Shown here piece by piece: positions 9,484-56,376 of a DNA stretch of 64,000 nt (positions are counted from its first letter, which is position 1; every line of letters begins with the position of its first letter). The translations under genes were made by a program, and so were the position numbers. The DNA is taken from positions 53,981 through 117,980 of the forward strand of contig NZ_LSJY01000001.1 in NCBI RefSeq assembly GCF_001556865.1. The letters run 5' to 3'. The DNA comes from Sphingobium sp. CCH11-B1. Its GTDB lineage: Bacteria; Pseudomonadota; Alphaproteobacteria; Sphingomonadales; Sphingomonadaceae. Under the pieces are notes generated by a model that saw only the letters and a program-made list of their open reading frames with translations, ran no database searches and was not told the DNA's origin.

Positions 9484-12400
9484 TGGCGCAGGACGACACC
9501 CTCCCCCCTTCCGACGCCGTCGTGGTCCGCGAAAAGCGGCCGCTCTGGCAGAAGATCGCGATTGGCGTCATCGGCCTTGTGGTCGCGCTGTTGCTGCTGG
9601 TCGGCGGGTTGCTGCTCGGCCTCAACACGCAGCCGGGCAAGCGTTTCCTGATCGGCCAGATCGCCGCGCTGCAGATGGAATCGGGGATGAAGATCGAGGT
9701 CGGCCGGATCGAAGGGTCGATCTACAGCGACATGGTCATCCACGATCTGGTGCTGCGCGATCCCAAGGGCGTCTTTGCCGTATCCCCGCGCGTTCACGTG
9801 GTGTGGAAACCGTTCCGTTACGTGAACAACCATATCTCCGTCAGCCTGCTGGAAAGCCCGCTGATCGTGCTGGCGCGCAGTCCTCAGTTCAACGTGACGC
9901 AGAGCGACCCCAACGCGCCGATCCTGCCCGATCTCGACATCGACGTCGACCGGATGAAGATCGCGCGCTTCGTGCTGGCGCGGCCGGTGATCGGGCAGAA
10001 GCGCGAGATCGCGATCGACGGCGTCACTCACATCGCCGACGGCCGCGCGCAGTTGTCCGCCAGCGCCATCGTGGACAGCGGCGATCGGCTGCAGGCGAAG
10101 CTGGACGCCGTGCCGGCACAGAACCGCCTTGCCATGAGCGGCACGCTGACCGCGCCAAAGGATGGCATCATCGCCGCCATGTCCGGCCTGACCGACGGCA
10201 TGACCGCGACCCTGGACGGCCGGGGTAGCTGGCAGGCATGGGACGGACGGATCATCGCACGCACGCCCAAGGGCGAGTTGGCGAACATCGCGCTCGCGGC
10301 CCGCAACGGCAATTTCACGGCCAAGGGTCCGGTGCGCCCCGGCCTGGTTTTCGCCGGGGCGGTGGACCGGCTGACCGGCCCGCAGATGGACGTCGACCTG
10401 TTCGCCGGCCTGAACGAGCGCCGCGTGAACCTCAAGGGCACATTGCGTTCGCCTGCCCTGGCCGCCGACGCACAGGGGTTGATCGACCTTGGCCAAAGCC
10501 GTTTCAGTGCGTTGCGCATCAACGCCGCGCTGCTGACCCCCGGCGCGATCATGGCGAAGGTAAAAGGCCGCGACGTACGCGCCTCCGTCATTCTCGACGG
10601 GCCGATGGCGACCCCCTTCATCGATTATGACCTGAGCGCGAAATATGTCGCCTTCGACGCGACGGGGATCGAAAATCTGAAGGCCAGCGGGCGGGCGGTC
10701 ATCGATGCCGACCGCATCCGCATTCCCGTAAACGCCACCGCCAGCCGGGTGACGGGCCTCAATGCGGCGGCTGGCGGCCTGCTCAACAACCTGCGGGTGA
10801 AGGGCGATTTCGCCTATGCCGCGGGCAAGCTCATCAGCGACAATCTGAAGATCGACAGCGACCGGGTGGACGCGACCGCCATCGTTCTCGCCGATCTTCC
10901 GAACGCCATCTATCGTGGCGCGCTCAAAGGCCGGGTGAACGATTATCGGATCGACGGCGTCGGCATCGTCAACTTGACCACCGATGTCGATCTGGTTCCG
11001 GGGCCCAAGGGCGGCTTTGGCCTTTCGGGCCGTTTCGGCGTGCGGACGGCACGGTGGGAAAATGCCTCCGTCCGCGACTTCCTGGGCGGCAATGCGATCG
11101 CCAGCGGGCGTATCGGCATGACGCCGGAGGGCAAGTTCACCCTCGCCGGCCTCAAGGGCGCGGCACCCAATTTCACCATCCATTCGGGATCGGGCAGTTA
11201 CGATACGGACGGACGGGTCGCCTTCGACGCGCGCGCCTCTTCCAAGCAATATGGCCCGCTGGCGCTGACGGTGCGCGGCACCATGGAGCGGCCCCAGGCC
11301 GTGCTGCGCGCGGCGCGGCCCAATGTTGGCGTGCAACTGACCGATGTGGTGGCGAAGCTGAATGGCGAGGCGGCCGGATACCGGCTGGAGGCGACCGGCG
11401 GATCGCCCTATGGCCCCTTCTTCGCCAATGTGCTGATCCGCACGGCGCAAGGCCCCCTGACCATCGATGTCACCAAGGCGCGGTTCGCGGGCGTCGACAT
11501 GAACGGCCGCATCCAGCAAAGCGCGGCCGGGCCGTTCACCGGCCAGCTTGCCATGAACGGGTCGGGCATTACCGGCGCGGTGCGGCTGGGGGCTGTGGGC
11601 AAGGCGCAGTCGGTGAACCTCAATGCGACGGCCAGCAACGCCAAATTGCCGGGGGAGGCCGATGTCGTGATCGGCCGCGCCATCCTCACCGCATCCATGG
11701 TGCTGACCGATCAGCCACAGGTCCGGGCCGATGTGCAGATCGCCAATGCGGCCTATGGCGACTATATCCTCCGCAAGGCGCGCGGGCGGCTGGACTATAG
11801 CGGCGGACGCGGACGCGCGCAGCTGGTCGCGGACGGTTCCAGCGGCGTTCCCTTCTCGATCGCCGCCAACGCGGCGTTGCGGCCGGACCTTTATGCCGTG
11901 GCGTTGCAGGGACGCGCCGCGAACATCGATTTCCGCCTGGCGCAACCGGCCATCATCCGCAGCGAACAGGGCGGCTACCGGCTGGAACCCGCCACGCTCG
12001 TCCTGCCGCAGGGCCGGGTCGATCTCGCCGGGCGCTTTGGCGGCACGACCGCGATGCAGGCGCGGTTCAAGGATTTCGACCTTGCCATATTGAATATCGC
12101 CGCGCCGGGGCTGGGCGTGACCGGACGGGCGACCGGCGCGCTCGATTTCACGCAGGCAGGCAGCGCCTTCCCGACCGCCACCACGCGCCTGGCCATCAGC
12201 GACTTCCGCCGTTCCAGCCTGACCACTGTATCGAACCCGGTGTCGATGAACGTCGAGGGCAAGCTGTCGGCGGCGGGCGGCGACATGCGCGGGCTCATCC
12301 GCCGGGGCAACGCGACGCTGGGTCGCTTCGTCGCCACCCTTGCGCCCCCCGGAGCCGGCACAAGCTGGTCCGAGCAGTTGCAGAACGCGCCGCTTAGCGG

Positions 12401-14949: not shown

Positions 14950-16023
14950 TTACTCGCCATCATCCTCCGCATCGGGTCCGGTCATCATGCCTTCCGCGAC
15001 AGCTTCGGTCCGGCCGCGAATCGCCTTTTCCAGCTTGTCCGCCATTTCGGGATGTTCGCGCAGGAAAGTCTTGGCGTTCTCCCGCCCCTGTCCGATGCGG
15101 ACGGAGTCGTAGGAGAACCAAGCGCCCGATTTTTCGACCAGCCCGGCCTTCACGCCGATGTCGAGCAGTTCGCCGATCTTGGAAATGCCTTCGCCATACA
15201 TGATGTCGAATTCGACCTGCTTGAAGGGCGGCGCGACCTTGTTCTTCACCACCTTCACGCGCGTCGCGTTGCCGACGATGTCGTCGCGATCCTTGATCTG
15301 GCCGGTGCGGCGAATGTCGAGCCGGACCGAGGCATAGAATTTGAGCGCGTTGCCGCCGGTCGTGGTTTCGGGATTGCCGTACATCACGCCGATCTTCATG
15401 CGCACCTGGTTGATGAAGATCACCATGCACTTGGACCGCGATATCGATCCGGTAAGCTTGCGCAGCGCCTGGCTCATGAGGCGCGCCTGCAGGCCGACAT
15501 GGCTGTCGCCCATCTCGCCCTCAATCTCCGCGCGGGGCACCAGCGCGGCGACCGAGTCCACCACCAGCACGTCGATGGCGTTGGAGCGGACCAGCGTATC
15601 GACGATCTCCAGCGCCTGCTCGCCGGTGTCGGGCTGCGACACGATCAGTTCGTCGATATCGACGCCCAGCTTCCTGGCATAAACGGGATCGAGCGCATGT
15701 TCGGCGTCCACGAACGCCGCCGTGCCGCCGCCCTTCTGCGCTTCGGCGATGGCGTGGAGCGCCAGCGTCGTCTTGCCCGAGCTTTCCGGGCCATAGACTT
15801 CGATGATCCGCCCCTTGGGCAGGCCGCCGATGCCAAGCGCGATGTCGAGACCGAGCGAACCGGTGGAGATCGCCTCGATCTCCAGCTTTTCGCGGCTGCC
15901 CAGCTTCATCGCGCTGCCCTTGCCGAAGGCGCGGTCGATCTGCGCCAGGGCCGCGTCCAATGCTTTCTGTCTGTCCATGTTTCCCGTCTTCTTGGAATCG
16001 ATGAGTGAGAGCAGTGCAGTCAT
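14950..16023 (-). CDS. recA: Recombinase RecA
   Basis: RecA forms filaments on single-stranded DNA, drives strand exchange, and stimulates LexA self-cleavage. The 357 residues include Walker A (GPESSGKT), the [11 protein letters not shown]alker B region, the [20 protein letters not shown]1 region and the [22 protein letters not shown]2 region, and an acidic C-terminus (DAEDDGE). ATG at 16023 has AAGGA about nine bases upstream; ATG 15978 ([11 protein letters not shown]) is the start used in many relatives and has a weaker site. A perfect SOS box lies 75 bases upstream of 16023, and a strong terminator follows. Confidence 0.98.
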
Positions 16024-16097: not shown

Positions 16098-16112
16098 GAA
16101 CAAGAGGGGAAC
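16098..16112 (-). promoter_or_regulatory. SOS box (LexA operator) of recA
   Basis: GAAC-AAGAGGG-GAAC on the plus strand (GTTC-N7-GTTC on the coding strand) is the direct-repeat LexA site known from alphaproteobacteria. It lies 75 bases before the recA start at 16023. Confidence 0.88.
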
Positions 16113-49681: not shown

Positions 49682-51580
49682 ATGCCTGCCCTGCGTCCTG
49701 AACGGTCCGTCATTGTCCTGTTGCTTGCCCTCGCGGTCGTGATGATCGCGGTGGGCGGCACGTTTTGGCTCTACACCGGTCAGCAGACGGAAACGGCCTG
49801 GGTGCGCCACACCCTGCGGGTGGAAAATCGGCTGTCCATGCTGCTGTCCCGCGCGCAGGCGGCGGAAAGCGCGCAGCGCGGCTTCCTCCTGACGCGTAAG
49901 GACGATTTTCTCGGATCCTACGAGGAATTCCGCGCAACCTGGCGCGATGAGGTGCGCGATCTCCAGGAGGACATCAGCGACAATCCCGACCAACTCCGCT
50001 CGCTCGAAAAAGTGGCGGCGCTGATCGATCGGCGCGTGCAGCGGCTCCAGACCAACATAGAGGCTCGCCGTGCAGGGCGGCCACCCGATACCACCGTGCT
50101 GTTGCAGGGGCTGGTGCTGATGTCGGGCATCCGCGCCGAAATCGCACGGATGAAGGCGCGCGAGGAGCACCTGCTGCGCAACAGGTCCATGGAGGCGGGG
50201 CGGTTGAGCGCCATGGTCACGGCCGGCCTGCTGCTCAGCGCGGCCCTTGTCATCATCCTGGGGCTGATGGCGCTGCGCAACGCCCGGCGGCGCGTCATGG
50301 AGGCGGTGGAAAGCCGCGAGGCGCTCCAGGCCGCCAATGATCGACTGATTGCGGAAGCGGAAGAGCGCGAAGCCGCGCAGGCGCAACTCCGCCAGGTGCA
50401 GAAAATGGAATCCATCGGCCAGCTGACCGGCGGCATTGCGCATGATTTCAATAATATGCTCGCCATCGTCATCGGGTCGCTCGACATGGCGAAACGGCGG
50501 CTGGGCGAGGATGGCGATCCGCGCATCGCCCGCGGCATCGACAATGCGGCGGAGGGCGCGCAACGCGCCGCGCAGCTCACCGCGCGCCTGCTCGCCTTTT
50601 CCCGGCAGCAGCCGCTCGACCCGCAACCGACCGACGTCAACAAGCTGGTGGGCGGCATGTCCGAACTGCTGCGTCGCACGATCGGGGAGGATGTGCGCGT
50701 CGAATCCGTGCTCGCCGGCGGCCTCTGGCGCGCCAGCATCGATGCCAATCAGCTGGAAAGCGCGATCCTGAACCTGTGCGTCAACGCGCGGGACGCGATG
50801 CCCGGCGGCGGCCATCTGACGATCGAAACCGGTAACGCGCATCTCGACGATGCCTATGCCGCCGCCCATGCGGATGTTTCGCCCGGCCAATATGTGATGG
50901 TGTCCGTGACGGACACCGGCACCGGCATGCCGCCGCATGTCGTGGAGCGCGCTTTCGACCCTTTCTTCACGACCAAGGGGGTGGGCAAGGGTACCGGGCT
51001 GGGCCTCAGCCAGGTGTTCGGCTTCGTCAAGCAATCGCACGGGCATGTCAAAATCTATTCGGAGCCGGACGAAGGCACGACCATCAAAATCTACCTGCCC
51101 CGCCATTATGGCGCGGACCTTGGCGCCGGCTATGCCGCCCCTGCGTCCGACAGCCTGCCGCGGGCGCGCGACGAGGAAATCGTCCTGGTGGTGGAGGATG
51201 AGGAACGGGTTCGCCACATGTCCGTCGATTCGCTGCGCGAACTCGGCTATACCGTGGTGCAGGCGTCGGACGGTGAGCAGGCGCTGGAGATGCTGACGAT
51301 CCAGCCGCGCATCGACATGCTGTTCACCGACATCGTCATGCCCGGCATCAACGGCCGCCAGCTTGCCGACCGCGCGCAGGCGCAGCGGCCCGGCCTCAAA
51401 ATCCTCTACACGACCGGATATACCCGCAACGCCATCGTCCATAACGGCATGCTGGACCCCGGCCTCGCCTTCCTGCCCAAGCCGTTCACGCTGGACCAGC
51501 TGGCGATCAAGGTGCGGCAGGTCTTGGACGGGGACGCGGCGCAGGCCGACCCGCCCCAGCGGCCCATGGAAGGCGAATGA
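49682..51580 (+). CDS. CHASE3-domain hybrid histidine kinase
   Basis: A 632-residue membrane kinase. The first helix is SVIVLLLALAVVMIAVGGTFWLY, followed by a periplasmic CHASE3-type domain (about residues 35-180, with the helix SRAQAAESAQRGFLLTRKDDFL) and a second helix near residue 190. A coiled coil leads to HisKA (QLTGGIAHDFNNMLAIVIGSLD), HATPase ([28 protein letters not shown]), and a C-terminal receiver (VVEDEERV, MLFTDIVMPGINGRQ, PKPFT). The H-box resembles the CckA group. The signal and partner regulator are unknown. It ends 68 bases before the radical-SAM gene. Confidence 0.93.
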   Translation: MPALRPERSVIVLLLALAVVMIAVGGTFWLYTGQQTETAWVRHTLRVENRLSMLLSRAQAAESAQRGFLLTRKDDFLGSYEEFRATWRDEVRDLQEDISDNPDQLRSLEKVAALIDRRVQRLQTNIEARRAGRPPDTTVLLQGLVLMSGIRAEIARMKAREEHLLRNRSMEAGRLSAMVTAGLLLSAALVIILGLMALRNARRRVMEAVESREALQAANDRLIAEAEEREAAQAQLRQVQKMESIGQLTGGIAHDFNNMLAIVIGSLDMAKRRLGEDGDPRIARGIDNAAEGAQRAAQLTARLLAFSRQQPLDPQPTDVNKLVGGMSELLRRTIGEDVRVESVLAGGLWRASIDANQLESAILNLCVNARDAMPGGGHLTIETGNAHLDDAYAAAHADVSPGQYVMVSVTDTGTGMPPHVVERAFDPFFTTKGVGKGTGLGLSQVFGFVKQSHGHVKIYSEPDEGTTIKIYLPRHYGADLGAGYAAPASDSLPRARDEEIVLVVEDEERVRHMSVDSLRELGYTVVQASDGEQALEMLTIQPRIDMLFTDIVMPGINGRQLADRAQAQRPGLKILYTTGYTRNAIVHNGMLDPGLAFLPKPFTLDQLAIKVRQVLDGDAAQADPPQRPMEGE

Positions 51581-51630
51581 CCTGCCTCAAGAGTCAGGCT
51601 TGATGCAGATCATGGACAGCGGCGGAGATT

Positions 51631-51645
51631 GAACATATCAGGAAC
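51631..51645 (+). promoter_or_regulatory. SOS box (LexA operator) at the radical-SAM/UdgX cluster
   Basis: GAAC-ATATCAG-GAAC is a perfect match to the alphaproteobacterial direct-repeat SOS box, the same form as the one upstream of recA. It ends two bases before the ATG of the radical-SAM gene, so LexA bound here would cover the ribosome-binding region and block transcription or translation of the cluster. Confidence 0.8.
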
Positions 51646-51647
51646 GA

Positions 51648-52892
51648 ATGACGCAGCTGTCCACCCGGCAAAAGCTGGAAATCCTGGCCGACGCAGCCAA
51701 ATATGACGCGTCCTGCGCATCGTCGGGCACGGCAAAGCGCGACAGCAGGGGCGGCAAGGGCATCGGATCGACCGAAGGGATGGGCATCTGCCACGCCTAT
51801 GCGCCCGACGGTCGTTGCATCTCCCTGCTCAAGATCCTGCTGACCAACAGCTGCATCTTCGACTGCCATTATTGCATCAATCGCCGGTCGAGCGACGTGC
51901 GCCGCGCCCGCTTTACCGCAGGTGAAGTGGTGGACCTCACGCTCAACTTCTATCGCCGCAACTATATTGAGGGTCTGTTCCTTTCATCGGGGATCATCCG
52001 CTCCTCCGACTATACGATGGAACAGCTGGTCGAAGTGGCGCGATCGCTGCGGGAGGATAATGATTTCCGCGGCTATATCCACCTCAAGACCATACCGGAC
52101 GCCGACCCCCAACTGCTCAACCTTGCCGGCCTCTACGCCGACCGCCTCTCCATCAATGTCGAGCTGCCGACCGAAAGCGGGCTCAAGCGTCTCGCGCCGG
52201 AAAAGGATGGCGGCCGGATCGAGGGCGCGATGGGCCAGCTCAAGAGCGAGATCGAGGACAAGCGGGACGCCAAGCGCAAATATCGCCACGCCCCCCGCTT
52301 CGCCCCCGCCGGCCAGTCGACGCAGATGATCGTGGGGGCGGACGCGGCCGACGACCGCGCCATCATCGCGCGCGCCAGCACGCTCTACGACCGGCATCGC
52401 CTCCGCCGCGTCTATTACAGCGCCTTCTCGCCCATCCCTTCGCCCAGCGCCGTGCTGCCGCTCAAGCGCCCCCCGCTGATGCGCGAGCACCGGCTTTACC
52501 AGTCCGACTGGATGATCCGATTCTATGGCTATGACGCGGGCGAAATCGCGGCGGCGACGGACCAGGCGACCGGCTGCCTGCCGCTCGACATCGATCCCAA
52601 GCTTGCCTGGGCGCTGAACCACCGCGCGGCCTTCCCGGTCGACGTGAACCGCGCCCCGCGCGAAGCGCTGCTGCGCGTGCCCGGCCTTGGCGTCAAGGCG
52701 GTCGACCGCATCCTGCTGAGCCGGCGCCATCGCCGGTTGCGGCTGGACGACGTCGCGCGGCTCACGACCTCCATCCGCAAGCTGCGGCCCTTCCTGATCG
52801 CCGCCGACTGGCGTCCGCTGGCGCTGACCGACCGCGCCGACCTGCGCGCGCGGCTCGCGCCGCCCGCGCGCCAGCTCGACCTCTTCACATAA
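51648..52892 (+). CDS. Putative DNA modification/repair radical SAM protein
   Basis: A 414-residue protein. The iron-sulfur cluster ligands are Cys 69, 73 and 76 (SCIFDCHYCINRRSSD, CxxxCxxC). The family-specific N-terminus YDASCASSGTAKRDSRGGKGIGSTEGMGICHAYAPDG is present, and a helix-hairpin-helix near the C-terminus (EALLRVPGLGVKAVDRILLSRRHRRLRLDDV) suggests DNA binding. It belongs to the group named for linkage to UdgX-type proteins, whose chemical reaction is not known. The start overlaps the RBS-proximal SOS box. It is the first gene of the repair cluster. Confidence 0.9.
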   Translation: MTQLSTRQKLEILADAAKYDASCASSGTAKRDSRGGKGIGSTEGMGICHAYAPDGRCISLLKILLTNSCIFDCHYCINRRSSDVRRARFTAGEVVDLTLNFYRRNYIEGLFLSSGIIRSSDYTMEQLVEVARSLREDNDFRGYIHLKTIPDADPQLLNLAGLYADRLSINVELPTESGLKRLAPEKDGGRIEGAMGQLKSEIEDKRDAKRKYRHAPRFAPAGQSTQMIVGADAADDRAIIARASTLYDRHRLRRVYYSAFSPIPSPSAVLPLKRPPLMREHRLYQSDWMIRFYGYDAGEIAAATDQATGCLPLDIDPKLAWALNHRAAFPVDVNRAPREALLRVPGLGVKAVDRILLSRRHRRLRLDDVARLTTSIRKLRPFLIAADWRPLALTDRADLRARLAPPARQLDLFT

Positions 52893-52967
52893 ACGTCATT
52901 TTCGGGTTGATCGCCGCGCCGACTCGTGAAATTCTCTCCTCAGGGTCTTTTGAAGGAGGTTGGGGTC

Positions 52968-53318
52968 TTGGCGACCGCACTCGGCAACAGCGCGCATTCG
53001 CGCAAGAGCTTCGCCAAACGCATCAGTTCGCACCTTGCCGCTGCGCTGGTCGTCTTTTGCCTCCTGCAAATCGGCATCGTCGCGAAGATGGGCGGCTCGC
53101 TCGTCCTGCACCTGGGCATCATCATCGCGATCGCGGGCTTTGCCGTCGCCGCGCGCGGGCTGGAACATCGCTGGCAGATGCTGGAACAGGGCGGCCTGTC
53201 GCAGGGCGGACTGACCTTGCGCTTCCGCCGCGACGTCGTGCAGCTCTGGGCCGCCAGCCTGATAGGCGCGCTCCTCTGGATCCCCGTCGGCATTATCTAC
53301 CGCTTCCTCTTCGGGTAG
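52968..53318 (+). CDS. Membrane protein of unknown function in the repair cluster
   Basis: A 116-residue protein. TTG at 52968 is chosen because AAGGAGG lies eight bases upstream, a near-perfect ribosome binding site; the in-frame GTG at 52926 has none. Two or three hydrophobic helices are visible: HLAAALVVFCLLQIGIVA, LVLHLGIIIAIAGFAVAA, and LWAASLIGALLWIPVGIIYRF. I do not recognise a family. It lies between the radical-SAM and hemerythrin genes on the same strand, but 75 bases separate it from the former. Confidence 0.65.
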   Translation: MATALGNSAHSRKSFAKRISSHLAAALVVFCLLQIGIVAKMGGSLVLHLGIIIAIAGFAVAARGLEHRWQMLEQGGLSQGGLTLRFRRDVVQLWAASLIGALLWIPVGIIYRFLFG

Positions 53319-53376
53319 GCGCGGACCCAATTGCGCGCGCCCACGTTCTGCCTTGCTGGAACAAGGAGGAACCACC

Positions 53377-53841
53377 ATGGCCGACGCCACCATCTTCGAT
53401 CGCCTCAAGCAGGATCATGACAGCCACCGCCAGCTCTTCGCCAAGATGGACGAGGCGAAGGACGATGCCGACCGCCTGGAAAAGCTGTTCGACCAGTTCA
53501 AGGTCGAAGTGAAGGCGCATGCCGCCGCCGAGGAGGAAACGCTCTACGCCACCATGCTCGCCCGCCCCGACCTGCGCGAGGACGCCCAGCACAGCGTGTC
53601 CGAGCACAAGGAGATCGAGGATTATCTCGAGGAGATGGAGGAGCAGGCATTCAACGGCCAGGAATGGCGCGAAACCTTCGCCCAGCTCAAGAAGCGCTAC
53701 CTCCACCACATCGAGGAGGAGGAAGATGAAATGTTCCCCGATGCCGCCAAGGATCTGACCGGCGAGGAAGAGCGGACGCTGGGCGAACGCTTCGCCGAGC
53801 GCAAGCCTGCCGAACTGGAACGCGCGCAGGCGGAGGACTGA
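53377..53841 (+). CDS. Hemerythrin HHE domain protein
   Basis: A 154-residue four-helix protein. The iron-binding pattern includes His in LKQDHDSHRQLF, HAAAEEETLY, VSEHKEIED and YLHHIEEEEDEMFP. These proteins bind oxygen, nitric oxide or iron in the cytoplasm. AAGGAGG stands before the ATG at 53377. It is 21 bases ahead of the udgX gene, so the two are probably co-transcribed. A role in protecting an iron-sulfur or DNA-repair process is only a guess. Confidence 0.9.
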   Translation: MADATIFDRLKQDHDSHRQLFAKMDEAKDDADRLEKLFDQFKVEVKAHAAAEEETLYATMLARPDLREDAQHSVSEHKEIEDYLEEMEEQAFNGQEWRETFAQLKKRYLHHIEEEEDEMFPDAAKDLTGEEERTLGERFAERKPAELERAQAED

Positions 53842-53861
53842 CCTCCGCCCCGCCGGCCGCC

Positions 53862-55295
53862 ATGCACCGCGTCGCCCTCGCCGCCCCCGATGATTTCGAC
53901 GGATGGCGCGCGGCGGCGCGGCGGCTGGCGGTGGCGGGCGTCGATCCCGCCGACGTGCATTGGCAGGTGGGCGACGCGCCTGCAGACCTGTTCGGCGGCG
54001 ATACGCTGCCGCCCGAACCGCTGCGCGCCGCTTTCTCCGTCCCGCGCGCCTTCGTCGATCTTGCCGAAACCGCGATCCTCCACAGCGACCCCGAACGGTT
54101 CGCGCTGCTATATGCGCTGCTGGTGCAGGTGCGCGACCGTCCGGGCGCGATGGAGGACAAGGCGGATCCGCTTCTCCGCCGCGTCGACATATTGGCCAAG
54201 GCCGTGCGCCGCGACATCCACAAGATGCGCGCCTTCGTCCGCTTCCGCGAGGTGGAAGAGGAAGGCGACGCCCGGTTCGTCGCCTGGTTCGAGCCCGACC
54301 ATCATATCGTGCGCGCCAATGCCGGCTTCTTCGTCCGCCGTTTCGCGACGATGCGCTGGTCGATCCTGACCCCGGACATCAGCATCCATTGGGACGGCCA
54401 GACGTTGAGCGAAGGACCGGGCGCAAGCCGCGCCGACGCGCCGGAAGGCGATCCGGTCGAGGCTTTGTGGAAGGGCTATTATGCCGCGATCTTCAACCCG
54501 GCCAGGCTCAAGACCGGCGCGATGCTGTCGGAAATGCCCAGGAAATATTGGCGCAACCTGCCCGAAGCCGCGCTCATCCCCGACCTCATCGCCGGGGCGC
54601 AAGCGCGAGAGGCGGCCATGATCGCAAGCGCGCCCTTGCCGGAAAAGCCGCGCAAGCCAGCCAAGGCCGAAAAGCCGCCAGCCCGGTCGGACAATGCCGC
54701 TACCGTCTGGGCCGCGATCCGGGACGAGGCGATGGCATGCACCCGCTGCCCGCTCCACCGGGACGCGACCCAGACCGTGTTCGGCGAAGGTCCGATCGAC
54801 GCGCCCCTCTTCTTCATCGGCGAACAGCCCGGCGATCAGGAGGACGTGGCCGGCCGTCCCTTCGTCGGTCCCGCCGGCCAGTTGTTTGATCAGGCGCTGG
54901 CGGAAGCAGGCGTCGATCGCGCCGCCGCCTACGTCACCAATGCCGTCAAGCATTTCAAGTTCGAACGGCGCGGCAAGCGGCGGCTGCACCAGTCGCCCGA
55001 CGCTGGCGAGATTCAGGCTTGCCGCTGGTGGCTGGGGCAGGAAATCGACCTTGTCCGCCCCCGCCTCATCGTCGCGCTCGGCGCCTCCGCCGCTCGCGCG
55101 ATGCTGGGCAAGGCTGTGACCATCGGCCGCAGCCGGGGCGCAGCCATCCCATTGGAAAACGGCGCGGAAGGCTGGGTGACGGTGCACCCCAGCTATCTGC
55201 TCCGCCTGCCCGACGAAGCGCGGCGCGCCGAGGAACGCGACCGATTCGTGGAGGAATTGCGCCAGATCGGACAGAGGCTGTCGGCGCTGGCTTGA
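53862..55295 (+). CDS. udgX: UdgX-family uracil-DNA binding protein with N-terminal DUF4130-like domain
   Basis: A 477-residue fusion. Residues about 1-250 match the DUF4130-like protein (FVDLAETAILHSDPERFALLYALLVQVRDRPG, KAVRRDIHKMRAFVRFREV). The rest is a uracil-DNA glycosylase of the UdgX type: motif I IGEQPGDQEDVAGRPFVGPAGQLFD (about residue 318), and the family-specific loop GKRRLHQ (about 370), whose His forms the covalent DNA bond in characterised UdgX. UdgX binds uracil in DNA irreversibly. Here the loop reads KRRLH rather than KRRIH. It lies in the SOS-linked cluster downstream of the hemerythrin gene. Confidence 0.93.
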   Translation: MHRVALAAPDDFDGWRAAARRLAVAGVDPADVHWQVGDAPADLFGGDTLPPEPLRAAFSVPRAFVDLAETAILHSDPERFALLYALLVQVRDRPGAMEDKADPLLRRVDILAKAVRRDIHKMRAFVRFREVEEEGDARFVAWFEPDHHIVRANAGFFVRRFATMRWSILTPDISIHWDGQTLSEGPGASRADAPEGDPVEALWKGYYAAIFNPARLKTGAMLSEMPRKYWRNLPEAALIPDLIAGAQAREAAMIASAPLPEKPRKPAKAEKPPARSDNAATVWAAIRDEAMACTRCPLHRDATQTVFGEGPIDAPLFFIGEQPGDQEDVAGRPFVGPAGQLFDQALAEAGVDRAAAYVTNAVKHFKFERRGKRRLHQSPDAGEIQACRWWLGQEIDLVRPRLIVALGASAARAMLGKAVTIGRSRGAAIPLENGAEGWVTVHPSYLLRLPDEARRAEERDRFVEELRQIGQRLSALA

Positions 55296-55356
55296 CGCGG
55301 TGGAGGAAACCTCCGATCGGTCCATGCGTTATCATGTCGAAGCCAAGGCGATACAC

Positions 55357-55776
55357 ATGACGGACCGGCCCCCACGCCCCAAGAGATCGAGCGTTTTCAT
55401 CGACGCCGCGATGGACAGCCAGCAACCGAGCGCATCGATGCAGACGGTGCGCATCCGCGACCTGTCCGAAGGTGGCGCGAAGATCGAGGGCAAGGCGCCG
55501 CCTGTGGGCACGACCGTCCTGCTGTCCCGGGGCGGCATAGAGATCGGCGCGCGCGTCGCCTGGGTTTCCGATCGCTATTTCGGCGTCGCCTTCGATGAAC
55601 CGGTGGCGGTGGAACAACTGATGCGCGCGGTCGCGAAGCCCGGCACGCCCGAACGTCCGGTTTACGCCGCGGCGCTGACCGATGGCGTCGGCCGCTCCCA
55701 CCCCGACCTGCTTCGCCGCCGGGCGACGCCGCTTGACCGGGCGGTCTTTGGCCTGCGCGTCGCGCCGCGCTCCTGA
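55357..55776 (+). CDS. PilZ-domain protein
   Basis: A 139-residue protein. The PilZ pattern is seen as RIRDLSEGGAKIEG (DxSxxG motif) and GARVAWVSDRYFGVAFDEPV, the usual PilZ barrel end. PilZ domains bind c-di-GMP through an RxxxR motif at the start; I see only RPPRPKR-type spacing, not a clean RxxxR, so nucleotide binding is uncertain. ATG 55357 has AAGG eight bases upstream; ATG 55324 and GTG 55300 are alternatives. It is convergent with metW and follows udgX by about 60 bases. Confidence 0.78.
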   Translation: MTDRPPRPKRSSVFIDAAMDSQQPSASMQTVRIRDLSEGGAKIEGKAPPVGTTVLLSRGGIEIGARVAWVSDRYFGVAFDEPVAVEQLMRAVAKPGTPERPVYAAALTDGVGRSHPDLLRRRATPLDRAVFGLRVAPRS

Positions 55777-55782
55777 CGTTGC

Positions 55783-56376
55783 CTATTTCCGCAGCAGGAA
55801 CACCGCATGTTCGGCGAACAGGTTCGCGTTCGCATGGGTGGTCTCTCGGTCGCCCTTCAGGAACCACTGCCCGTCGATGTGCCAGCCCCGATCCTTCACC
55901 AGCGCGCGGAAATCGTCGACGGTGACATGGTGGATATTGAGCGTGTCATACCATGTGTCGGGCAGCAGCCGCGTCACCGGCATCCGCCCGCCCCACATCA
56001 GCGACAATCGCCCGCGCCAGTGCGCGAAATTGGGAAAGGACACGAACGCCTGCGCCCCGATGCGCAGCAATTCTTCCACCACCCGGTCCGGCCGCCGCGT
56101 CGTCTGGAGCGTCTGGCTCAATATCGCATAGTCGAAACTGGCGTCGGGATAATAGCCAAGGTCGGTGTCCGCGTCCCCCTGAACCACGGAAAGCCCGCGC
56201 GCCACGGCGGCCGCGACATTGGACCCGTCGATTTCCAGGCCGCGCGCGTCCGCCCCCGCATTGTCGCGCAGCGCCGCCATCAGCGCGCCGTCGCCACAAC
56301 CCACGTCCAGCACCCGCGCGCCCGGCCGTACGGTGCGGGCGATCAGCGCCAGGTCGGGACGCAGCCCCGCGCTCAT
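55783..56376 (-). CDS. metW: Methionine biosynthesis protein MetW
   Basis: A 197-residue methyltransferase-like protein. The motif [18 protein letters not shown] is SAM-binding, and the later [23 protein letters not shown] and the [18 protein letters not shown] segment are typical of MetW. It works with MetX in the sulfur-amino-acid pathway; its exact reaction is unclear. It overlaps the metX stop (ATGA) at 56373-56376, so translation is coupled. Confidence 0.95.

Follow-up and report, generated by a model that had tools for sequence, protein, structure and literature searches.

A conserved, predicted LexA operator ahead of a radical-SAM/UdgX gene pair in Sphingobium may coincide with the promoter and adjoin a leaderless start

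A candidate SOS operon in Sphingobium sp. CCH11-B1

The window analyzed here, a 64,000-nucleotide (nt) stretch of the Sphingobium sp. CCH11-B1 genome (contig NZ_LSJY01000001.1, positions 53,981 to 117,980), contains four genes on its plus strand that follow a predicted LexA operator. The operator, GAACATATCAGGAAC (GAAC-ATATCAG-GAAC), spans nucleotides 51631 to 51645 and is separated by the dinucleotide "ga" from the ATG at 51648 that begins a radical S-adenosylmethionine (SAM) gene (51648–52892). The encoded protein belongs to TIGR03916 (rSAM_link_UDG), which it matches with 562.5 bits against a cut-off of 343.5, and it carries the expected CxxxCxxC motif. It is followed by a 130-codon open reading frame (52926–53318) for a small protein that we predict, by eye, to be a membrane protein and that matches no NCBIfam or Pfam family; a TTG codon at 52968, located behind AAGGAGG, is the likelier start of this frame. 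Next come a hemerythrin HHE-domain gene (53377–53841; PF01814, 69.4 bits versus a cut-off of 25.3) and a gene whose product fuses a DUF4130 domain (TIGR03915) to a UdgX-type uracil-DNA glycosylase (UDG) domain (TIGR03914; 53862–55295). An earlier note on this DNA, made from the sequence alone, had described the same site two bases ahead of the radical-SAM start and the same four genes on one strand, and our reading of the sequence agrees on both counts.

The SOS box is conserved before the radical-SAM gene

Taken by itself, a match to the bare GAAC-N7-GAAC pattern says little. The window holds four such matches where shuffled sequences average 1.16, and 5 of 100 shuffles contain four or more, which weighs against giving a single match much significance. 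Two of the four (692–706 and 11836–11850) appear by eye to be intragenic. Position and conservation set the match at 51631–51645 apart. We examined the best 80 genome loci of at least 588 with relatives of the radical-SAM protein, these being the closest ones (74–93% identical). In 79 of the 80, an exact GAAC-N7-GAAC lies within 70 nt of the radical-SAM start (−17 to −44 relative to the matched start), and the remaining locus (L037) has a box with one mismatch. Elsewhere in these 968,755 bases there are 44 matches, from which about 1.2 would be expected in the 80 windows searched (−300 to +20). The downstream genes rarely have such a site of their own: a box within 70 nt of the start was found for 1 of 71 udgX genes and 0 of 19 hemerythrin genes. 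Within the spacer of the repeat, the T and A at box positions 5 and 6 (counting from 0) are identical in all 81 sequences, the window included. One of the 80 loci, L060, lies on a contig titled as a Salinicola metagenome-assembled genome; its radical-SAM gene groups with those of Qipengyuania, and the title probably reflects a binning error.

A sampling of the class gave a similar picture. The TIGR03916 cut-off is passed in 18 of 289 genomes, and the box is present in 17 of the 18, one of which is the genome of L001, already counted among the 80 loci; no box was found before the radical-SAM gene of L082. That the Sphingobium site is a chance match, which the shuffling result by itself would allow, we regard as next to negligible, given that the box is kept by 79 of 80 relatives and by 17 of the 18 class-sample genomes. 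The earlier note had held that absence of the site from close relatives that keep the genes would speak against its proposal, and such absence is not what the relatives exhibit.

Two operator types precede the gene across Pseudomonadota

A sample of the phylum Pseudomonadota extends this observation to a second kind of operator. The TIGR03916 cut-off is passed in 84 of 398 genomes, and box counts cover the 77 that lie outside the class set. A LexA-type box precedes the gene in 72 of these 77. In 48 it is the alphaproteobacterial repeat (34 GAAC-N7-GAAC and 14 GTTC-N7-GTTC), and in 24 it is the palindrome CTGT-N8-ACAG, the LexA site of the Escherichia coli type (19 exact and 5 with one mismatch). 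Four of the five one-mismatch loci (L223–L226) are hardly independent because their box sequences are identical. In control windows taken from the middle of loci, the alphaproteobacterial box occurs in 0 of 5040 and the exact palindrome in 1.7%; in random windows that may themselves contain the boxes, the values are 4.1% and 2.5%, respectively. A palindrome with at most one mismatch occurs in 6.1% of 240-nt segments. These comparisons suggest that operator type varies across Pseudomonadota while control of the gene stays. One point weighs against this reading: the match between operator and LexA type in the phylum sample is a prediction from the boxes.

None of the searched boxes was found upstream in the other five phylum-sample genomes (L145, L174, L178, L179, and L183). 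Three of them, L178, L179, and L183, share the upstream palindrome CTCATCCAATGAG.

The gene also occurs on plasmids. Among ten named plasmid loci, those of Azospirillum, Paracoccus, Shinella, Phaeobacter, Ensifer, and Methylobacterium have the alphaproteobacterial box, two from the betaproteobacterium Caballeronia have the palindrome, and those of Bacteroides and Pusillibacter have neither. At the Pusillibacter (Bacillota) locus, L230, the radical-SAM gene is followed by one for a DUF4130 protein without a UDG match, and two GAAC-N4-GTTC sites, which we take to be the Gram-positive form of the LexA site, flank a TTGACA...TAAAAT-like promoter of a small open reading frame leading into the radical-SAM gene. 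The Bacteroides locus, L229, has the same radical-SAM/DUF4130 pair, none of the counted boxes, and no annotated adjoining udgX; a TTAG-N6-CTAA-like match lies 180 nt upstream. Because DUF4130 follows the radical-SAM gene without UdgX at both loci, DUF4130 may be the steadier partner of the radical-SAM protein.

Related sites precede recA and lexA

A second SOS box, GAACAAGAGGGGAAC, lies on the minus strand at 16098–16112, approximately 120 bases upstream of recA (14950–15978, minus strand; recognized by eye from its translation). The earlier note had reported the same form of site before recA. The site is real, but in the direction of recA it reads GTTC-N7-GTTC and so faces the other way from the box at 51631.

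Genes for LexA were found in all six relative genomes searched, and GTTC-N7-GTTC begins 29 to 43 nt before the lexA ATG in each of the five in which the start could be located. Two of the upstream regions (L232 and L233) have two overlapping GTTC-N7-GTTC sites, formed by three GTTC half-sites 11 nt apart. An extended form of the site, GAACRTANNNNGAAC, has 39 matches in the six genomes versus 6 for a reversed control, with imuA (named by eye) among their locations. The window site has the features of an alphaproteobacterial LexA box, being an exact GAAC-N7-GAAC conserved before the same gene. With a conserved box, two unrelated operator types, and GTTC-N7-GTTC before lexA in five relatives, the earlier note's proposal that the radical-SAM/UdgX pair is part of the DNA-damage response is supported as far as LexA control goes, and we consider predicted LexA control of the pair to be very nearly certain.

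Operator, promoter, and start codon are predicted to coincide

The upstream regions of the 80 loci and the window (n = 81), when aligned on the start of the box, reveal a second conserved element. T at −18 is found in 74 of 81, G at −16 in 77, and C at −14 in 59, and there is little information farther upstream. In the window these columns fall in TGGACA (51613–51618, plus strand), a predicted −35-like hexamer resembling TTGACA and located 17 nt ahead of TATCAG (51636–51641), the hexamer within the box that opens with the invariant T-A. Given the conserved −35 element, +1 would by canonical numbering coincide with the first base of the ATG at 51648–51650, such that the operator would double as the −10 element and the mRNA would be leaderless.

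The spacing between box and start codon is consistent with this arrangement. Exactly 2 nt separate the box from the first in-frame start codon in 62 of the 80 loci, and 3 nt do so in another 4; the 2-nt gap is kept in 20 of the 34 phylum-sample loci with GAAC-N7-GAAC. Gaps of at most 4 nt characterize 68 of the 81 loci (66 with ATG and 2 with GTG). Shine-Dalgarno matches of at least five occur ahead of 6 of these 68 starts, which is the background level (257 of 3000 random 17-mers). From the spacing and the absence of ribosome-site enrichment, we judge that transcription probably begins at or near the A of the ATG and yields a leaderless message.

Several findings weigh against this prediction. 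A scan of 51400–55800 with a consensus promoter model found no promoter-like site, and the predicted −10 hexamer, TATCAG, lacks the final T. Its T-A is frequent in further boxes of the six relative genomes, and ATA occurs in other SOS boxes, so the invariance may instead be a preference of LexA. Among loci with less than 73% identity, every −35 column stays below 55%. The start codon is at least 10 nt from the box in 5 of the 34 phylum-sample loci with GAAC-N7-GAAC, and 13 of the 81 loci have a longer gap, with a leader and a ribosome-site match of at least four. These 13 loci would also be compatible with another explanation, in which the message begins with a short leader and ribosomes bind a Shine-Dalgarno sequence overlapping the box (AGGAAC), so that the 2-nt spacing would reflect a ribosome-binding site embedded in the operator. 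The window does contain AGGA at 51640–51643. However, a G precedes the second GAAC in only 30 of 81 sequences, and the close-spaced loci resemble random 17-mers in their Shine-Dalgarno matches, whereas 20 of 20 hemerythrin genes have a match of at least four bases. We therefore consider an embedded ribosome-binding site improbable and favor the leaderless start.

In eight loci with leaders (L045, L052, L057, L066, L067, L070, L071, and L076), a palindrome-like GGAAC...GAAA...GTTCC was noticed by eye, overlapping the second half of the box. It could be the site of a second regulator or an RNA hairpin.

The same spacing recurs at another SOS gene. In four Erythrobacteraceae-type loci where the pair is nested among mutagenesis genes (see below), imuA has its own box and starts 2 nt after it in two (L019 and L071) and 17 and 34 nt after it in the others (L023 and L077); in two further imuA genes the start lies 5 and 7 nt past the box. 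Some other SOS genes may likewise have an operator-overlapping leaderless start of the kind predicted here.

A core of box, radical-SAM, and DUF4130-UdgX genes with local insertions

The four genes of the window differ in how consistently they occur together. Among the 80 loci we found udgX in 74, a hemerythrin gene in 20, and the membrane protein gene in 5, counts that are lower bounds because some contigs end early. The patchiness of the latter two points to a core made of the box, the radical-SAM gene, and the DUF4130-udgX gene, and by this comparison the hemerythrin and membrane protein genes are local insertions. On the best tree of 79 radical-SAM proteins, 21 of them from loci with the hemerythrin gene, its distribution takes 10 gains or losses, 7 of which are forced by well-supported branches.

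The earlier note had suggested that the hemerythrin may supply iron handling or redox protection, and a working role in supplying iron to, or sensing oxygen for, the radical-SAM iron-sulfur cluster during damage can be imagined. The gene lies between the radical-SAM gene and udgX wherever both are present, at most 60 nt separate its stop codon from the udgX start in 16 of 18 cases, and the proteins from loci that have it group together on the tree (10 changes versus 18.8 for shuffled labels). Against such a role stand the 60 of 80 loci in which no relative was found (a few on short contigs), the repeated gains or losses, the lack of an own box in all 19 genes searched, and five annotated plasmid operons in which no hemerythrin gene separates the radical-SAM gene from its partner. 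With its own ribosome-site matches in 20 of 20 cases, the hemerythrin gene looks to us like a local insertion, and a working role appears quite unlikely. The protein also falls below the cut-off of NF053874, the family of the ribosome-binding persister protein PA2171 (46.1 versus 190 bits). A general-stress promoter of the EcfG type was considered and rejected, as GGAAC-N14-19-[CG]GTT precedes 0 of 20 hemerythrin genes; the pattern occurs in 6 of 81 radical-SAM upstream regions, in all six by overlap with the box, and in 1 of 72 udgX upstream regions.

A related question is whether LexA would control only the radical-SAM gene in this strain, with the membrane protein, hemerythrin, and udgX genes using a promoter of their own. 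The gaps of 75 and 58 nt ahead of the two inserted genes would leave room for one, gene content between the radical-SAM gene and udgX varies, and udgX is separated from its partner in a few species; an opposite-strand open reading frame intervenes in L011 and L042, and the 6 kb examined at L015, L033, and L054 yielded no udgX, observations that weigh against a single operon. However, the gaps contain no promoter-like or terminator-like signal: the 51400–55800 scan detected no terminator-like signal between the radical-SAM and membrane protein genes, where RNA folding likewise indicates no strong structure (z = 0.22). Moreover, in 70 of 71 loci udgX is not preceded by a separate box, and in 32 of 71 the radical-SAM stop and the udgX start are less than 50 nt apart. 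We thus view separate promoters as rather unlikely and favor read-through from the LexA-controlled promoter.

Features of the radical-SAM and DUF4130-UdgX proteins

The CxxxCxxC motif of the radical-SAM protein occupies residues 69 to 76, and C69, C73, and C76 are present in all 39 aligned sequences (39 of the 81, the window included). Cysteines 23, 48, and 57 are also invariant in this alignment and possibly bind an auxiliary iron-sulfur cluster. The C-terminal part has a weak likeness to helix-hairpin-helix domains (E = 0.1). We set aside any assignment of substrate from a structural model of the protein, for which the predicted local distance difference test (pLDDT) score is 64 and the best PDB matches (E values of 0.002 or weaker) are HydE and unrelated barrels that include LIAS and viperin, too weak for a substrate to be named.

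Both halves of the fusion protein belong to their families, with 346.4 versus 189.95 bits for TIGR03914 and 214.9 versus 112.25 bits for TIGR03915. The UdgX half has the GEQPG motif, the R-loop histidine, and the HPS-R motif. The catalytic residues of UdgX are thus present, and H376 is the predicted cross-linker. Assignment to family 4 UDGs (TIGR00758) was rejected. The score passes (132 versus 125.3 bits), but the protein has GEQPG and KRRLH rather than A or G in place of Q and no R-loop. A model of the fusion has a pLDDT of 82.9, and its Foldseek and VIA matches are filled by the UDG half. Comparison with UdgX of Mycobacterium smegmatis (PDB 6ajo and others; PMC10359453) reveals the same GEQPG, cross-linking histidine, and HPS-R motif, an R-loop of KRRIH versus KRRLH here, and 45–49% identity over the UDG half; the solved chains comprise 205 to 229 residues and lack the DUF4130 half, whereas the protein here is fused to it and encoded behind a radical-SAM gene. 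In one relative (L069:7221–8681) asparagine replaces the cross-linking histidine, and this UdgX might be an ordinary glycosylase or inactive.

Spore photoproduct lyase (SplB) is likewise a radical-SAM enzyme in the SOS response. The protein here is distinguished from it by membership in TIGR03916, and there is no solved lyase among its five PDB sequence matches (E ≤ 1). DUF4130 was grouped in 2013 with SplB-like enzymes and UDGs as a predicted mutagenesis-related enzyme (PMC3765255).

Linkage to the imuA-imuB-dnaE2 mutagenesis cassette

In some relatives the pair adjoins imuA, imuB, and dnaE2, SOS genes that have the same kind of box. At L019 (3059–12255), the gene order is imuA, imuB, radical-SAM, DUF4130-udgX, dnaE2. 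The dnaE2 product matches the NCBIfam error-prone DNA polymerase with 1380 bits against a cut-off of 939, the ImuA product has only a match below the cut-off (31 versus 150 bits), and the third protein we take to be ImuB from its position and a weak match to Pol IV. Among the 80 sphingomonad-type loci, at least one of the three genes is in reach in 26 and all three in 21. Where present, imuA and imuB precede the pair and dnaE2 follows it, all on one strand; at L079, dnaE2 follows the pair, and no imuAB was found in the 6 kb upstream. Judging from these loci, the nested arrangement is that of Erythrobacteraceae-type genomes.

A second arrangement emerged when flanks were widened to 7 kb on each side, where the contig allows, in 80, chosen by list order, of the 94 class- and phylum-sample genomes that remain when G001 is set aside. 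Twelve of these 80 loci are linked to imu genes, 5 nested (one of which, L272, is near a contig end and displays dnaE2 only) and 7 divergent. In the seven divergent loci (L163–L166, L169, L170, and L173; wide flanks L273–L276, L279, L280, and L283), whose radical-SAM proteins are 63–64% identical to that of the window, imuA-imuB-dnaE2 runs away from the pair, and a box between the operons reads GTTCATGATATGTTC (GTTC-N7-GTTC). The recurrence of linkage in two arrangements, each in its own set of relatives, suggests a functional tie between the pair and SOS mutagenesis. The other 68 of the 80 wide-flank loci have no imu link at E = 1e-8; distant ImuA and ImuB proteins may have been missed because the queries came from a single Erythrobacteraceae-type genome. 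No imu gene was seen in the window between 48000 and 59000.

Discussion

Together, these observations favor, with a probability of roughly 0.9, the view that nucleotides 51613 to 51650 form the LexA-repressed promoter of an SOS operon. LexA bound to 51631–51645 would cover the −10 element and the discriminator and thereby block RNA polymerase. On damaged DNA, RecA would trigger self-cleavage of LexA, permitting transcription to start at the first base of the ATG or beside it, which would yield a leaderless radical-SAM message and continue through the small membrane protein and hemerythrin genes into the DUF4130-udgX gene. Expression would thus be set by a fused element in which a 15-bp repeat serves as LexA operator, −10 element, and discriminator, and the next codon as the transcription start. 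UdgX would excise uracil and could use H376 to form a covalent bond with the abasic site. DUF4130 and the radical-SAM protein may carry out further radical chemistry on DNA, the likeliest targets being lesions or uracils encountered in error-prone synthesis by ImuB and DnaE2.

More tentatively, the pair could be a working arm of the SOS mutasome, although we consider this partnership doubtful. UdgX would then capture abasic sites met or made as ImuA, ImuB, and DnaE2 copy damaged DNA, and the radical-SAM and DUF4130 proteins would repair or release them.

To our knowledge, the cellular role of UdgX and TIGR03916 proteins has not been established. Two unrelated LexA-type boxes and, in two sets of relatives, a neighboring error-prone polymerase cassette point to damage-induced mutagenesis or damage tolerance, rather than housekeeping repair of uracil, as the place to seek a phenotype.

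We take COG4277 to be equivalent to the TIGR03916 radical-SAM/helix-hairpin-helix protein. An operon of COG1573 and COG4277, that is, the same two gene families under LexA control, was already called SOS-regulated in Bacteroidetes in 2021, in the accessible part of PMC8565304, which cites reports on Verrucomicrobia and Alphaproteobacteria (Caulobacter) for the same operon. Because SOS control was in print, the central proposal of the earlier note is right but not new. The Sphingobium operon differs from that described there in its DUF4130-UdgX fusion, its two inserted genes, and the coincidence of operator, predicted −10 element, and start codon, and our conservation counts take in sphingomonads as well as a second operator type. 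Relative to the same part of that source, our analysis goes further in the counts, the second operator type within Pseudomonadota, the predicted fusion of promoter, operator, and start, and the nesting with imu genes. UDG-family genes of Caulobacter are listed in PMC1839093, and this operon is not named in the portion available. Within the open-licence literature, to which the comparison for CTGT-type boxes and imu nesting is likewise confined, we found no report joining UdgX with radical-SAM proteins, on an SOS box or LexA in Sphingomonas, on LexA with "SPO1 DNA polymerase-related" proteins, or on a leaderless LexA-controlled start of this kind; we do not claim that these are absent from print.

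Elsewhere in the window, the minus strand between 400 and 900 resembles, by eye, a conjugative relaxase, presumably of the TraA/MobA type, and suggests a mobile element at the edge of the window.

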